A DNA stretch of 64,000 nt from positions 310,001-374,000 of the forward strand of contig NZ_CP102629.1 in the NCBI RefSeq assembly GCF_024721585.1, in the 5' to 3' direction. The notes under the pieces were generated by a model. It was not told where the DNA came from. It did not search any database and saw only the letters and a program-made list of their open reading frames with translations. How positions within the stretch are numbered: position 1 is the stretch's first letter; the number at the start of each line of letters is the position of its first letter. Source of the DNA: Sphingomicrobium aestuariivivum (GTDB lineage: Bacteria; Pseudomonadota; Alphaproteobacteria; Sphingomonadales; Sphingomonadaceae). Positions 55,890 through 60,503 of the stretch are shown one piece after another. The position numbers were made by a program, and so were the translations under genes.

Positions 55890-56960
55890 CTAGCCGTCGG
55901 CCGAAGCACTGAGGTCGAGCTTCTTCATGGCATGGCGAAGCTGGTCGTAGCTCAGCCCGAGCGCCTTGGCGGTGGCGCGCTGGTTGTAGCGATGCTTTTC
56001 CAGCGCATGGCCGATCAGCGCCTTTTCATATTCGGTCACGCTGGCCTTGAAATCGTCGGTGTCGAGGTCGGCGGCCACCCCATCCGGCGACGGCGACGAC
56101 GCAGTGGCAGCGGCGGGCGCCTCCTCTTCCTCGTCGGGCTGGCTCCGGCTCGCAGGCCCCGCCCCGCCCATCAGCGCCCAGGGCGACTTGAACGGATCGA
56201 AATTGATCGTCTCGACCGCGCGTTCGGGATCCTCGGCGCGATAGACCGCGCGCTCGACGACATTGCGCAGCTCGCGTACATTGCCGGGCCAACCATATTT
56301 CTCGAGCCGTTCCAGCGCCTTGTCTGCAAAGCCGGGCCAGTTCGGCCAGTCGAGCTCGACCGCCATGCGCCGCCCGAAATGTTCGGCAAGCAGCGCGATA
56401 TCGCCCTCGCGAGCGCGCAGCGGCGGCAGCGTCACCACCTCGAAGGACAGGCGGTCGAGAAGGTCGGCACGGAAGCGTCCCTTGTCGACGAGGCTGGGAA
56501 GATGTTCGTTGGTCGCCGCGACGATGCGCACGTCGACGCGGATCGGCTTGGAGGCGCCGATACGTGTCACCTCGCCATATTCGACCGTGCGCAGGAGCCG
56601 CTCCTGCGCCGCCGCCGACAGGGTCGCCAGTTCGTCGAGGAACAGTGTGCCGCCATCGGCCTCCTCGAAGCGCCCCTGCCGCGTTTTCGTTGCGCCTGTG
56701 AAACTACCGGCCTCATGGCCGAACAGCTCGGCCTCGATGAGTGTTTCGGGAAGCGCCGCGCAGTTCATCGTGACGAGCGGCCCCGACCAGCGGGTCGACA
56801 GGCGGTGGAGACGCTCGGCGATCAGTTCCTTGCCCGTGCCGCGCTCGCCGATGACGAGCACGGGACGGTCAAGCGGCGCGGCGCGGCTTGCCCGCTCCAC
56901 GGCATCGAGAAAGGCCAATGACTGGCCGACAAACTGGTTCGCCCGCTCCATGCCGAACAT
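55890..56960 (-). CDS. pspF: Psp operon transcriptional activator PspF
   Basis: A sigma-54 enhancer-binding AAA+ activator without a receiver domain, 356 residues, like E. coli PspF. Walker A is GERGTGKE near 41-48, and the sigma-54 loop reads GSFTGA where the norm is GAFTGA. GGTLFLDELA (Walker B) and RFRADLLDRL are intact. A Pro/Ala/Glu-rich linker of about 35 residues precedes the C-terminal Fis-type helix-turn-helix (NQRATAKALGLSYDQLRHAM). The starts at 56960 and 56951 are both plausible. It is divergent from pspA, and a possible binding repeat overlaps the start region. Confidence 0.93.
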   Translation of the reverse strand: MFGMERANQFVGQSLAFLDAVERASRAAPLDRPVLVIGERGTGKELIAERLHRLSTRWSGPLVTMNCAALPETLIEAELFGHEAGSFTGATKTRQGRFEEADGGTLFLDELATLSAAAQERLLRTVEYGEVTRIGASKPIRVDVRIVAATNEHLPSLVDKGRFRADLLDRLSFEVVTLPPLRAREGDIALLAEHFGRRMAVELDWPNWPGFADKALERLEKYGWPGNVRELRNVVERAVYRAEDPERAVETINFDPFKSPWALMGGAGPASRSQPDEEEEAPAAATASSPSPDGVAADLDTDDFKASVTEYEKALIGHALEKHRYNQRATAKALGLSYDQLRHAMKKLDLSASADG

Positions 56961-56961
56961 G

Positions 56962-56979
56962 TGGTGGAAAATCCCACCA
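56962..56979. promoter_or_regulatory. Inverted repeat, candidate PspF upstream activator site
   Basis: TGGTGG-AAAATC-CCACCA is a perfect 6-bp inverted repeat directly upstream of the pspF start at 56960. It is about 76 bp upstream of the sigma-54 -24 element of pspA, so about 100 bp before the predicted start point. That distance is right for a bacterial enhancer site and would also allow pspF autocontrol. It is a candidate only. Confidence 0.5.
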
Positions 56980-57052
56980 TCTGGCAAGATGTTTCATGCT
57001 GCGATGCGGCGGAAAATTACGTTTTTTGCCGATTTGCAATCGGTGTGACTTT

Positions 57053-57070
57053 TTGGCACGTTTCTCGCAT
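57053..57070 (+). promoter_or_regulatory. Sigma-54 promoter of the psp operon
   Basis: TTGGCACGTTTCTCGCAT fits the -24/-12 consensus: GG at 57055-57056, 10 bp, then GC at 57067-57068. A perfect inverted repeat CCGATT-TGC-AATCGG lies just upstream at 57029-57043. The pspA start codon follows at 57105. Together with pspF this gives a complete sigma-54 circuit. Confidence 0.82.
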
Positions 57071-57104: not shown

Positions 57105-57773
57105 ATGGCCATCTTCTCCCGGGTTCGGGACATTTTTGCAGCCAATATGACGGAGCTGCTCGACCGTGCGGAGGATCCCGCGCGGATGATCCGCATGATC
57201 ATCCTCGAAATGGAAGAAACACTCGTCGAGGTTCGCGCCTCGGCCGCCCGTTCGATCGCCGACGGCAAGGAAATGCGCCGCGCGCTCGAACGGCTCGAAC
57301 AGATGCAGGACAGCTGGACCGAGAAGGCCGAGCTGGCCCTGTCGAAGGATCGCGAGGATCTTGCCAAGCAGGCGCTGATCGAGCGCCAGAAGGCGGCCGA
57401 CATGGCCCACGGGCTGCGCAGCGAGATCGAGGCGATCGACGAGACGCTCAAGGCCTATGAGGCCGATATCGCCAAGCTGCAGGCCAAGCTGCGCGAGGCC
57501 CGCGCCCGCCAGAATGCCATCGCCACCCGCCTCGAGAGCGCGATGAGCCGCGCCAAGGCGCGCGAGGTCCTCAACGGCAACCGTACGCAGGACGCCTTCT
57601 CGCGCTTCGAGAGCCTCGAGCGCCGCGCCGACCTTGCCGAGGGCCAGGCCGATGCGCTCGGCATGACGGGGCCCAAGAGCCTCGAAGAGGAGATTTCCGA
57701 ATTGAAAGCGGCCGACAAGGTCGATGAAGAACTCGAGGCCATGAAGGCCGCGCTCCGCGCCAAGCGCGATTAA
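57105..57773 (+). CDS. pspA: Phage shock protein A (IM30/ESCRT-III family)
   Basis: A 222-residue helical protein. It is the main effector of the Psp response, a peripheral membrane protein that binds damaged inner membrane and also inhibits PspF. The N-terminal amphipathic helix MAIFSRVRDIFAANMTELLD and the long coiled coil (about 25-185) are clear. PspA landmarks such as EDPARMIRMIILEMEETLVEVR are present. The ATG at 57105 has AGGAG 6 nt upstream; the frame is open upstream but without a ribosome site. First gene of the sigma-54 operon. Confidence 0.96.
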   Translation: MAIFSRVRDIFAANMTELLDRAEDPARMIRMIILEMEETLVEVRASAARSIADGKEMRRALERLEQMQDSWTEKAELALSKDREDLAKQALIERQKAADMAHGLRSEIEAIDETLKAYEADIAKLQAKLREARARQNAIATRLESAMSRAKAREVLNGNRTQDAFSRFESLERRADLAEGQADALGMTGPKSLEEEISELKAADKVDEELEAMKAALRAKRD

Positions 57774-57825
57774 GATAGTCGGGCCAAGCGCGACTGAGCG
57801 ACACGTTTAAAGGGGAAAAGTAGCA

Positions 57826-58152
57826 ATGTTCGAAGACGTCTTCCTGCCAATCATGATCGTTGGCATGCTGTTCATCGGCCTGCCGTGGATCATCTTTCAC
57901 TACATCACCAAGTGGAAGACGCAGGCCACCCTCACCGTGCCCGATGAAAAGCTGCTCGAGGAACTGCACGAGGCCGCGCGTCGGCTCGATGATCGCATCT
58001 GCACCATCGAGCGCATCATGAGCGCCGAGGATCCGGCGTGGCGCGACAAGTGCGTGTCCTCGGACCGCCTGCGCGACCAGAACCTCATCGGCCGCGCCGA
58101 CCAGCTGCTCGCCGAGCATGAAGCCCTGCTCGAGCGCAAGAAGGAGCGTTGA
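57826..58152 (+). CDS. pspB: Envelope stress protein PspB
   Basis: PspB is an inner-membrane adaptor that with PspC relieves PspA inhibition of PspF. The 108-residue product has one TM (about 6-26, FLPIMIVGMLFIGLPWIIFHY) and a cytoplasmic helix with RLDDRICTIERIMSAEDPAWR, matching the RIxTLExIL...PxWR motif of E. coli PspB. It is longer than the E. coli protein (74), with an extra C-terminal helix (about 82-108). Weak AAAGGGGAAAAG ribosome site. Confidence 0.9.
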   Translation: MFEDVFLPIMIVGMLFIGLPWIIFHYITKWKTQATLTVPDEKLLEELHEAARRLDDRICTIERIMSAEDPAWRDKCVSSDRLRDQNLIGRADQLLAEHEALLERKKER

Positions 58153-58154
58153 AC

Positions 58155-58541
58155 ATGACCGGACCTGCCCGCCACACCAAGTTCTACAAGGACAAGAAGC
58201 ATGGCAAGGTCATGGGCGTATGCGCCGGCCTCGCCGACTATACCGGCGTCGACGTCACGCTGATGCGCATCATGATGCTCTTCGCCATCCTGATGAGCTC
58301 GGGTTCGGCCTTCATGCTCTATTTCCTCGCCGGCATCATCGCCGAGGACAAGCCCGCCGAGCTGGCCTATGAAAATGAGGCCGACCGCCAGTTCTGGCGG
58401 CAGGTCCGCGCCAGCCCGACCAAGTCGGCCAAGGCGATCCACGCCGAGTTCCGCTCGATCGACCGGCGCCTGGCCGACATCGAGAGCTATGTGACGAGCG
58501 AGAACCGCGTCCTCGCCCGGCAGATCGACGAACTGAAGTAA
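58155..58541 (+). CDS. pspC: Envelope stress protein PspC
   Basis: A 128-residue PspC-domain protein. The PspC core is KKHGKVMGVCAGLADYTGVDVTLMRIM, followed by a TM pair or hairpin (about 36-58, LFAILMSSGSAFMLYFLAGIIA). The cytoplasmic C-terminus contains RRLADIESYVTSENRVLARQI, a copy of the LExxVT module shared by the following genes. AAGGAG sits 8 nt before the ATG at 58155. The pspB stop overlaps an in-frame TTG, a less likely start. Confidence 0.92.
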   Translation: MTGPARHTKFYKDKKHGKVMGVCAGLADYTGVDVTLMRIMMLFAILMSSGSAFMLYFLAGIIAEDKPAELAYENEADRQFWRQVRASPTKSAKAIHAEFRSIDRRLADIESYVTSENRVLARQIDELK

Positions 58542-58567
58542 GAGACGGAAAAAGAGGGGAAAATGAG

Positions 58568-58867
58568 ATGAGTGGCGATGAGGTAATTGCCCTGTTCATC
58601 GTGGTCGGCCTACCGATGGCGCTCGGTTTCTACATCATGCACCGCCTGTTCGGCCTGAAGCAGCGCAAGATGGAGATCGAGGCCGAGCAGACCGCCGAGA
58701 AGGCGGCGCAATATGCAGTCTCCAACCATGAGCTCGAACAGCGCGTGCGCGTGCTCGAGCAGATCGTGACCGACGGCGGTGCGCATACGGCAGCACAGAT
58801 CGAGGCATTGCGCGACCTGCAAGACCGTGATCCCCTGCCCCTCCCCAAGGAGAAGGCCCGTGGATAG
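58568..58867 (+). CDS. PspB-like small membrane protein 1 of the psp operon
   Basis: A 99-residue protein with an N-terminal TM (about 6-28, VIALFIVVGLPMALGFYIMHRLF), a charged helix, and the module ELEQRVRVLEQIVTDGG followed by AAQIEALRDL. The order TM then coiled coil resembles PspB, whose core is TIERIM. It is the first of five extra genes after pspC, 26 bp downstream of pspC. Function unknown; a sensor or adaptor in the Psp response is the natural hypothesis. Confidence 0.8.
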   Translation: MSGDEVIALFIVVGLPMALGFYIMHRLFGLKQRKMEIEAEQTAEKAAQYAVSNHELEQRVRVLEQIVTDGGAHTAAQIEALRDLQDRDPLPLPKEKARG

Positions 58868-59189
58868 CGCCGAAATCCTCGCCTTCGCCCCTTACATCAC
58901 GGTTATCATCGTTGCCTCGGTGCTCGGCTGGGTGATCAACACCCACAACCGCATCCGCAACGGCTATCCGCTCGAAAGCAGCTGGGGCGTGGCCATGCAC
59001 CCCAAGAAGGACCGCGAGGCCGAAGAGCGCATCAAGCTGTTGACCAGCGAGAATGCCGAATTGCGCGCCCAGATGTCTGCGATGAAGGAACGCGTCGAGA
59101 CGGTCGAGCGCATCGTTACCGACCAGAGCTACGGCCTTGTCCAGGAGATCGAGAAACTATCGATCGAGAAGAAGGGAGCCAGCAACTGA
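58860..59189 (+). CDS. PspB-like small membrane protein 2 of the psp operon
   Basis: A 109-residue protein starting with GTG at 58860, overlapping the previous stop by 8 bp, with AAGGAG a few bases upstream. It has a TM at about 8-26 (FAPYITVIIVASVLGWVI), then NGYPLESSWG, and a coiled coil with ERVETVERIVTDQS and LVQEIEKL. An earlier in-frame ATG at 58779 lies deep in the upstream gene and is rejected. Same family module as genes 1 and 3-5. Confidence 0.78.
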   Translation: MDSAEILAFAPYITVIIVASVLGWVINTHNRIRNGYPLESSWGVAMHPKKDREAEERIKLLTSENAELRAQMSAMKERVETVERIVTDQSYGLVQEIEKLSIEKKGASN

Positions 59190-59494
59190 TGTGGGGTCCC
59201 TTCGAAATGGTCGCCGCCATCGTCGTGGTCACCACCATCGGTGGCCTCATGACCGACTGGCTCAAGGCCAAGCACGGCTATCCGATCACCGATGACGAGG
59301 GCAATGTCATCCGTCAGGAGAAGGGCACCCGCGGCGAAGCCCACGAGGCCCGTATCGAGGCGCTCGAGAAACGCCTCGCTGTCCTCGAACGCATTGCGAC
59401 CGACCGCGGCATCCAGACCGCCGACCAGATCGAGGCCCTGCGCCAGCTCGACCGGCTCGACCATGAACAGCGCATCCGGGAGACCAGCAACTAA
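59189..59494 (+). CDS. PspB-like small membrane protein 3 of the psp operon
   Basis: A 101-residue protein. TM at about 6-22 (EMVAAIVVVTTIGGLMT), motif KAKHGYPITDDEGN, then a helix with EALEKRLAVLERIATDRG and ADQIEALRQL. The ATG overlaps the previous stop in TGATG, so translation is coupled. Closest to gene 1 in the C-terminal module (RVLEQIVTD versus AVLERIATD). Confidence 0.8.
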   Translation: MWGPFEMVAAIVVVTTIGGLMTDWLKAKHGYPITDDEGNVIRQEKGTRGEAHEARIEALEKRLAVLERIATDRGIQTADQIEALRQLDRLDHEQRIRETSN

Positions 59495-59835
59495 TGCAGA
59501 GCCTCGTCATCATCGGCGCCCTCATCATCGGAATCCTCGGGGTGATCGGCTGGATCATCACCGAGACGATGAAGGTCAAGCACGGCTATCCGGTCGAGGA
59601 CAGCATGGGCCGCAAGGTCTCGCCCGGCAATCCGCAGAAAATGCTCGAACTCAAGGACGAGAATGCCGCGCTGCGCGACCAGCTCGACAAGGTCTACGAC
59701 CGCCTCGAGACGCTCGAGCGCATCGTCACCGACAAGCCCTCGCGCCTTGCTGCGGAAATCGATAATCTCAAGACCCTGCCGCCGCGGCCCGAAAAGTCCG
59801 AGCCGCTCCCCGGCAACGAGAAGGAGGAAGGCTGA
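59494..59835 (+). CDS. PspB-like small membrane protein 4 of the psp operon
   Basis: A 113-residue protein. TM at about 4-24 (LVIIGALIIGILGVIGWIITE), motif KVKHGYPVEDSMGRKV, a helix with YDRLETLERIVTDKP and LAAEIDNL, and a Pro/Glu-rich tail (LPPRPEKSEPLPGNEKEEG). The ATG overlaps the previous stop (TAATG). The HGYP linker links it to genes 2 and 3. Confidence 0.8.
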   Translation: MQSLVIIGALIIGILGVIGWIITETMKVKHGYPVEDSMGRKVSPGNPQKMLELKDENAALRDQLDKVYDRLETLERIVTDKPSRLAAEIDNLKTLPPRPEKSEPLPGNEKEEG

Positions 59836-60068
59836 TGGATCCGTTCTCGATGGTCGTGGCGATCGTCGCCATCGTCATGGGCGCCAAGGTGCTCGACAGC
59901 TTCGCCCGCGCGCGCGGCAAGGCGGCGGGCAGCCAGATGGAAGGCCCTGAAGTCAAGGCGCTGCGCGAGGAGGTATCGGCGTTGAAGGACCGACTGCAGG
60001 TCCTCGAACGCATCGCCGTCGAAAAGAATGACAGCCTGACCCAGCAGATCGAGAGTTTGCGCGACTGA
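59835..60068 (+). CDS. PspB-like small membrane protein 5 of the psp operon
   Basis: A 77-residue protein, the shortest of the set. TM at about 4-18 (FSMVVAIVAIVMGAK), then a helix with ALKDRLQVLERIAVEKN and LTQQIESLRD. The HGYP linker is missing. The start codon overlaps the previous stop in TGATG. It is the last gene of the psp run; no terminator is visible before sufE. Confidence 0.8.
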   Translation: MDPFSMVVAIVAIVMGAKVLDSFARARGKAAGSQMEGPEVKALREEVSALKDRLQVLERIAVEKNDSLTQQIESLRD

Positions 60069-60092: not shown

Positions 60093-60503
60093 ATGAGCCT
60101 GCCTCCCCTCTCCGACATCGCCGAGGAATATGAGTTTCTCGAAAGCGAGGACCGCTACCGCCTGCTGATCGATCTCGGGCGCAAGCTCGAGCCCATGCCC
60201 GAGGCGCTGAAGACAGACGCCACGAAGGTGCGCGGCTGCTCGGCCAGCGTCTGGGTCTATCCCCGCCAGGACGGCGACAAGCTCCACTTCCTCGCCGACA
60301 GCAATGCAGCCATCACCAAGGGCGTCGTCGCGCTGGTGCTCGCCGCGGTCCAGGACAAGAAGGCCGAGGAGGTCGCCGAGACCGACATCGCCGCTGCCCT
60401 CGAACCCTTCGAACTCAGCCGCGAATTGTCATCGAACCGAACGCAGGGCGTGCCCAACATGATCGCGCTGGTGCGCGAGACCGCCGAGCGGCTCGCCGCC
60501 TGA
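60093..60503 (+). CDS. sufE: Cysteine desulfuration protein SufE
   Basis: SufE accepts persulfide sulfur from SufS for iron-sulfur cluster assembly. The 136-residue product has the acceptor cysteine in KVRGCSASVWV and the family segments YRLLIDLGRKLEPMP and SSNRTQGVPNMI. The ATG at 60093 lies 24 bp after the last psp-run gene. The stop overlaps the next start (TGATGG). Confidence 0.93.
   Translation: MSLPPLSDIAEEYEFLESEDRYRLLIDLGRKLEPMPEALKTDATKVRGCSASVWVYPRQDGDKLHFLADSNAAITKGVVALVLAAVQDKKAEEVAETDIAAALEPFELSRELSSNRTQGVPNMIALVRETAERLAA

Follow-up and report, generated by a model that had tools for sequence, protein, structure and literature searches.

Among described proteins, the closest counterparts of the genes analysed here are two components of the phage shock protein (Psp) system, namely PspB (PF06667/TIGR02976), which consists of a single N-terminal transmembrane segment (TM) and a cytoplasmic helix, and the C-terminal cytoplasmic tail of PspC. 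According to the accessible part of PMC5596341, PspA is bound in the on state by the C-terminal cytoplasmic domain of PspC, and the corresponding part of PMC3068692 states that the PspC zipper is needed for PspA. The main text of Ravi et al. 2024 (PMC11237479) describes the PspC tail as a divergent C-terminal PspB and mentions, in one phrase (section 17), PspB duplicates in psp operons, e.g. AOL22920.1, which may itself be sphingomonad; counts or order may stand in the figures, tables or supplements of that paper.

Here we analysed a stretch of 64,000 nt from Sphingomicrobium aestuariivivum (the window; contig NZ_CP102629.1, all positions 1-based within the window), in which pspA, pspB and pspC are followed by five short genes, hereafter the array. 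Judging from their sequences, these genes belong, as diverged members, to the PspB/PspC-tail family. They appear to belong to an old set of four classes (alpha, beta, gamma and delta), which is found throughout the family Sphingomonadaceae and is not the product of a recent local duplication; the order of the classes is largely fixed across the family. The locus resembles the operons mentioned by Ravi et al. 2024 in having more than one PspB-type gene per psp operon. The initial annotation, made from the window sequence before this analysis, regarded such an array as not described. This may hold for the ordered four-class array, of which our literature search, covering few subscription papers, found no description; it does not hold for PspB duplicates as such, which are already in print in the text cited above. 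The accessible text of Popp et al. 2022 (PMC9239133) contains neither a mention of sphingo- nor a PspB array, and our search for literature on sphingomonad psp gave no paper with phage shock protein or Sphingomonas in its title or abstract.

Relationship of the array genes to PspB and PspC

The initial annotation described the five genes as 99, 109, 101, 113 and 77 codons long, and both coordinates and lengths were correct on re-reading. Its four overlapping junctions (an overlap of 8 bases and three of 1 base) are present too, as is the module it noticed in all five genes, with small departures in genes 1, 2 and 5. The module has the form R-x3-[L/V]E[R/Q]I-[V/A]-[T/V]-[D/E], with I-x-x-L some residues further on, and the departures are LEQIVTD in gene 1, VERIVTD in gene 2 and LERIAVE in gene 5. 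Hydropathy and the positive-inside rule agree with the proposed layout of one N-terminal TM and a helical cytoplasmic part in each protein. Out of the 302 array genes counted in the family (see below), 301 have one N-terminal TM by hydropathy and 298 have more K/R after the TM than before it, so the coiled part of the array proteins is predicted to be cytoplasmic. For the 227 of the 302 genes in which the spacing from TD to [E/Q]IxxL was measurable, it is 7 residues (176 genes), 8-12 (37) or 14 (14). Some database proteins (P0059-P0064) apparently carry two array modules, or parts of them, per chain and may be gene fusions or frame errors; as a second TM would place the second module on the opposite side and frame errors are possible, they were set aside and no evidence was drawn from them.

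The five genes are paralogs by pairwise comparison, with z-scores of 4.7-26.2 and the observed score reached by 0 of 300 shuffles in each of the 10 pairs. Links to proteins outside the array are weaker, with z of 1.0-4.0 to PspB and 1.7-5.1 to PspC; array genes 1-4 score -1.2 to 2.2 against PspA. Because the pairwise PspB and PspC scores are weak and one PspA score is no lower, the link of the array to PspB and PspC rests on profiles.

We iterated a hidden Markov model (HMM) that started from the relatives found with phmmer for the five genes; clear matches to PspA, PspB, PspC and SufE were left out. From the second round on, the training set could include one gene above the Pfam PspB cut-off (at locus L040); the first round did not, and it already gave 55 matches. 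Searched against 12,778 open reading frames (ORFs) at E<0.01, the array-gene profile matched 60 PspB, 58 PspC and 0 PspA. In hhalign, the probabilities for the alpha, beta and gamma classes were 90.5, 93.0 and 91.4 against PspB and 95.7, 60.7 and 94.8 against the PspC tail, and 0.2-2.3 for PspA against the array classes. PspB against PspC gave only 6.5, which does not exceed the 6.9 of the PspC tail against PspA. As the arrays match both PspB and the PspC tail and the match of PspB to PspC is low, the array profiles stand between the two. A chance motif or a generic coiled coil was considered as the source of the similarity and is countered by the shuffles, the profile matches and hhalign, although the tightest control, a shuffle in heptad blocks that keeps the coiled-coil periodicity, came close. 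With this control, shuffles of the PspC tail reached the observed score in 0/60 cases for alpha, 2/60 for beta and 0/60 for gamma. Homology beyond a generic coiled coil, which the initial annotation had asked to be checked, is supported by profile comparison (90-93 against PspB), and its proposal of a paralog set related to PspB and the PspC tail and tied to psp agrees with the profile matches and with all 61 family loci.

The class consensuses show which parts are shared. Helix 1 (RLxxLERI) is common to all, and the end LxxEIExLR is common to the array and the PspC tail and is not found in PspB; the delta class stops before this second half of the module. With PspB the array proteins share the single N-terminal TM, the cytoplasmic helix, the helix-1 half of the module and the place in the psp operon. 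They differ from it in the scores of the window members, which lie under the curated cut-offs, in carrying TD...LxxEIExLR, in occurring in up to seven diverged copies per operon, and in the DAExPxWR-type end of PspB, which was not present in the array class consensuses. The alpha, beta and gamma classes share both module halves with the PspC tail; unlike PspC, the array members have their own single TM anchor and no PspC domain, PF04024 not being among the Pfam matches of the five array proteins (E<=1). Other psp regulons have small extra membrane proteins, PspD, PspG and PspM, and the five genes match none of their models in Pfam or NCBIfam at E<=1. A sequence search of solved structures with PspB and PspC gave no useful match.

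One position of the module has a counterpart in E. coli. In E. coli PspC (MG1655 record), residue 105 is the V within ERYVTSD, and it is aligned to the V/A position of ERI[V/A]TD in the array. According to the accessible text of PMC6003685, V105D corresponds to a change in Yersinia by which the contact of PspC with PspA is lost, and V105D is said to abolish PspC-dependent signalling in E. coli. V, A or I stands at this place in 293 of the 297 family array genes that could be placed (of 302). We consider this alignment to be suggestive only.

Distribution and order of the array

A search for PspC over 147 genomes of the order found it in 135, and the psp loci of 119 were analysed (L110 is a placeholder sequence; G053 and G144 were examined afterwards). 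The final profile search of the 12,778 ORFs gave 316 matches outside PspA, PspB and PspC, all downstream of pspC on its strand. Class counts were restricted to matches with E<1e-6 at a distance of 100-3500 nt downstream of pspC, so that 4 weaker ones of the 316 are not counted. Array genes follow pspC in 61/61 loci of the window's family, with 2-7 genes per locus and 302 in total; the window locus is not part of these 61. Five genes were found in 22 loci, six in 16, four in 12, three in 6, seven in 4 and two in 1. The other families of the order have exactly one array gene in 10/58 psp loci, and at L040, one of these ten loci, the extra gene after pspC is a second PspB, above the Pfam PspB cut-off. 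At five loci of another family (L076, L142, L145, L135 and L115), pspC is followed by a second PspC of 75-84 aa that lacks the tail, then by a single gamma gene and by what we take to be an L,D-transpeptidase gene.

Relatives searched for without reference to psp adjoin it as well, which bears on the concern that such genes might occur away from psp in most relatives. A scan of named genomes by the alpha-class pattern alone gave 503 relatives and 80 loci that were kept, from genera including Sphingomonas, Sphingopyxis, Sphingobium, Novosphingobium and Erythrobacter; PspC is present in 79 of these loci, and PspA, PspB and PspC together in 78. A second draw of 69 family genomes had array matches (E<=1e-4) in 65, each with a best E of <=2.7e-9, their clustering being judged by eye among the matches listed. 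Four genomes had no array match (G541, G558, G573 and G566), and the first three of them also lack PspA and PspC (E<=0.001). PspA and PspC were checked in 13 genomes, namely 12 of the 69 and G327, a genome of a different order. The window's own genome (2.35 Mb, one contig) gave the five genes, then the PspC tail (5.0e-5), PspB (0.017) and two matches with E>0.05, and the array profile found no further alpha, beta or gamma module in it. When the draw was widened to the class, at least 21 of 385 genomes matched (at most 13 candidates scored per genome), 5 of them of the same family. A re-scan of the other 16 gave 6 PspB/PspC-type genes of the genome's own psp locus, 9 long ORFs of different kinds and, in G327, a gamma-like pair away from psp. 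Two of these 6 psp loci hold an extra PspB-like gene. In the alphaproteobacterial psp loci L170 and L173, two PspC-domain ORFs flank an extra PspB-like gene.

At least 7,997 of 7,999 scored database proteins matched the array profile. The usual name of the named relatives is hypothetical protein; among the 120 matches listed, cell division protein FtsX occurs four times and ABC transporter subunit once. For one relative, P0036, a source already gives the name Phage shock protein B. The nearest named database relatives of array gene 4 are from Sphingomicrobium.

The classes were set by simple patterns outside the module. Alpha has a K-GYP stretch and beta AEKAAQYAA; gamma often starts with PFEMV and also holds the remainder; delta has GWxxWLALK and the end RIEIADLKERIRKLEAIAAGVDL. 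Most frequent among the orders is alpha-alpha-beta-gamma-delta, seen in 8 loci, followed by beta-alpha-alpha-gamma-gamma-delta, seen in 6. Delta is terminal in 54/61 family loci and never stands earlier within an array. The window array, classified by eye, reads beta, alpha, alpha, alpha, gamma.

Regarding the age of the set, the best match of 300/302 family array genes comes from a different genus and not from the same array, which is a lean and not a proof, as other-genus candidates are far more numerous and the window's five genes are not in the set. In 265/302 the class is the same as that of the best other-genus match. The initial annotation spoke of a duplicated array, and its genes are indeed paralogs; a recent tandem duplication in this strain was considered as their origin and is not supported, since those 300 genes match another genus better than an own-genome paralog. 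By the counting method, dN/dS ranged from 0 to 0.39 in 9 same-genus pairs with 40 gene comparisons (one with dS 0), and was 0.52 in one comparison that may not involve orthologs; several dS values exceed 1. Genes overlap by 1 or 4 bases at 117/241 within-array junctions, a count in which overlaps are favoured because start codons were picked nearest to the preceding gene.

Features of the psp locus

Table 1. Features of the psp locus of S. aestuariivivum by position in the window.
Feature	Positions	Strand	Evidence
pspF, sigma-54 activator	55890..56987	-	TIGR02974 489.4 bits vs cut-off 443.55
sigma-54 (-24/-12) promoter-like site, before pspA	57054..57069	+	1 mismatch to the consensus we take to be TGGCACGNNNNTTGCW
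pspA	57105..57773	+	TIGR02977 261.1 bits vs cut-off 242.95
pspB (canonical)	57826..58152	+	PF06667 1.4e-25; TIGR02976 above cut-off
module in PspB (RICTIERIMSAEDPAWRDK)	57994..58050	+	motif position
pspC	58155..58541	+	PF04024 3.8e-17; TIGR02978 above cut-off
module in PspC tail (RLADIESYVTSENRVLARQIDELK)	58467..58538	+	translation; array profile match in own genome
array gene 1, 99 aa, class beta by eye (AEKAAQYA stretch)	58568..58867	+	
module in array gene 1	58742..58813	+	motif position
array gene 2, 109 aa, GTG start, class alpha by eye (GYP stretch), 8-base overlap with gene 1	58860..59189	+	NCBIfam PspB model 1.4e-5, under cut-off
module in array gene 2	59091..59162	+	motif position
array gene 3, 101 aa, alpha-type GYP and gamma-like GPFEMV start (by eye), 1-base overlap	59189..59494	+	
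module in array gene 3	59372..59443	+	motif position
array gene 4, 113 aa, class alpha by eye, 1-base overlap	59494..59835	+	AlphaFold2 model made
module in array gene 4	59701..59772	+	motif position
array gene 5, 77 aa, class gamma by eye, 1-base overlap	59835..60068	+	NCBIfam PspB model 1.8e-3 across most of length, under cut-off
module in array gene 5	59991..60062	+	motif position

The array genes are probably transcribed together with pspABC from the sigma-54/PspF promoter. The junctions from pspC to gene 5 are short or overlapping, and no terminator-like site was found on the plus strand over this stretch. A site with at most one mismatch to the sigma-54 consensus lies near the pspA start in 67/118 psp loci, and in 0/118 in a stretch of the same size after pspC. 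Downstream of array gene 5 follow sufE (60093-60503) and a 4HBT thioesterase gene. sufE lies within 900 nt of the array on the same strand in 57/61 family loci, and it is equally near the last psp gene in 10/58 loci of other families.

Possible role of the array

In each of the following losses of PspB or the PspC tail, array-type genes stand beside PspC. In G053, pspA is followed by a PspC that lacks the tail and by two array genes, and a genome-wide search at E<=0.1 found no PspB. The locus of G146 (L109) reads pspA-pspC-beta-beta-gamma, with no PspB found in a search at the locus only. The window genome has a second psp operon, pspA2-pspC2-delta (G000:C1, ~1981.5-1983.0 kb; L184:2718-4212). 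Its genes overlap by 4 bases at both junctions, and ~0.2-0.3 kb before pspA2 there is a sigma-54-like site with 1 mismatch; no pspB was found at the locus. Delta is missing from the main array in 8 genomes, seven of the 61 and the window's own. Such a pspB-less second operon with delta after pspA2-pspC2 is present in 7 of these 8 (6 of the window's genus and 1 other); the eighth, G146, has no delta at all. PspB itself is present in 60/61 family loci. These loss patterns, together with the joint absence of array, PspA and PspC in three of the four array-less family genomes, hint at a PspB- or PspC-like role for the array genes.

Homology, co-location with psp, conservation across the family, ordered classes and persistence at loci that lack PspB or the PspC tail are what we observe. 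The reading that we find likeliest, which we regard as evenly poised between right and wrong, is that the array proteins form, together with PspB and PspC, a hetero-oligomeric inner-membrane receptor of divided PspB/PspC-type adaptors. Each array protein would cross the inner membrane once, and its cytoplasmic helix would end in the module of PspB and the PspC tail. At rest, the array modules and TMs may contact the PspC tail and the membrane part of PspC, and/or under stress the modules may serve as extra docking sites that draw PspA off PspF onto the membrane. The differing TM and juxtamembrane parts (GYP, AEKAAQYAA, PFEMV and the terminal GWxxWLALK) could provide different inputs or places in the complex, and induction from the shared sigma-54/PspF promoter would make the receptor grow. 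A bolder version, which we hold to be less likely than not, is a divided Psp receptor in which 2-7 ordered, class-specific single-pass subunits share out the functions of PspB and of the PspC tail and are able to replace PspB and, in G053, the PspC tail. This would be a multi-input sensor with many PspA docking tails, whose terminal class can move with a pspA-pspC pair to found a second operon.

Several observations weigh against the proposed receptor or the homology behind it. In the accessible text of PMC3068692, the E. coli two-hybrid assay places the PspB-PspC contact in the TM part of PspC, with the PspB zipper not needed, and did not detect a contact between PspB and PspA; this speaks against module-based pairing of PspB-type proteins with PspC, and the confidence given above takes it into account. 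The window members score under the curated PspB cut-offs, with best values of 25.3 vs 51.7 bits (TIGR02976) and 14.3 vs 25.6 (PF06667). Heptad-block shuffles of PspB reach the observed score in 1/60 for each of alpha, beta and gamma. Delta has no direct hhalign link to PspB (0.85) or PspC (0.7), its sole tie being to gamma (93.5), and its shuffles reach the score in 10/60 (PspB) and 22/60 (PspC tail). Array gene 5 has a pairwise z of 3.8 against PspA (0/300 shuffles), no lower than the links to PspB and PspC. At the place of V105, PspC sequences from the order itself show Y in 50 of 120 rows and V in 24, with 36 unplaced, and PspB has V in 38/119, so V is no mark of PspA binding. The AlphaFold2 model of gene 4 (pLDDT 76.9, pTM 0.32) has helices at 2-29, 47-79 and 82-94 with a break at TD, whereas the tail in the model of PspC (pLDDT 64.4, pTM 0.33) is a single unbroken helix, 88-127. 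Regarding distribution, 48/58 psp loci of other families have no array, and G566 has pspABC yet no array. G327 has a gamma-like gene pair ~80 kb from its own pspABC (L185:2727-3209), beside ORFs that are presumably dut, coaBC and ubiB, and G561 and G570 each have one weak match (5.9e-6 and 2.8e-5) away from psp.

We also weighed narrower roles. The array proteins may be docking sites for PspA only, i.e. membrane-anchored spare PspC tails forming an effector scaffold with no sensing role. The second half of the module, which is like the PspC tail and absent from the PspB consensus, the V, A or I at the V105 place in nearly all placeable genes and the two modules kept in G053 without a PspC tail would all suit such a scaffold. 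Nevertheless, we consider it unlikely, as the layout of N-terminal TM and helix is that of PspB, delta lacks the second half, and array genes are kept at PspB-less loci even where PspC has its tail (L109 and the second psp loci), which suggests a PspB-like place beside PspC. According to the title of Flores-Kim and Darwin 2016, contact between the cytoplasmic domains of PspB and PspC silences the response, and the array proteins could likewise be PspB-type silencers that hold resting PspC, each released by a different membrane signal. This idea agrees with the profile link to PspB and with array genes at PspB-less loci; we find it more doubtful still, because PspB is kept in all but one of the family loci, where the array comes on top of it rather than simply taking its place, and because the module end is like the PspC tail and unlike PspB.

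Finally, the genes might be unrelated small membrane coiled-coil proteins riding in the psp operon, the motif being a product of coiled-coil convergence. The proteins are short and helical, pairwise PspB scores are weak with one PspA score equally high, and heptad-block shuffles come close. However, PspA, a long coiled coil present in 118 loci, is not matched by the array profile, nothing else in the own genome is matched at E<0.05, almost all family array genes match another genus best, and the second gene after pspC at L040 passes the Pfam PspB cut-off; we hold convergence to be the least probable of these explanations.

The psp work in the accessible texts of PMC3068692, PMC5596341 and PMC6003685 was done with enterobacteria and a single PspB, whereas here a whole family has a conserved multi-gene extension. 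Together with the natural losses of PspB or the PspC tail, the arrays offer ready comparisons for which of the PspB, PspC and PspA contacts carry the stress signal, and G053 is a natural test case for replacement.

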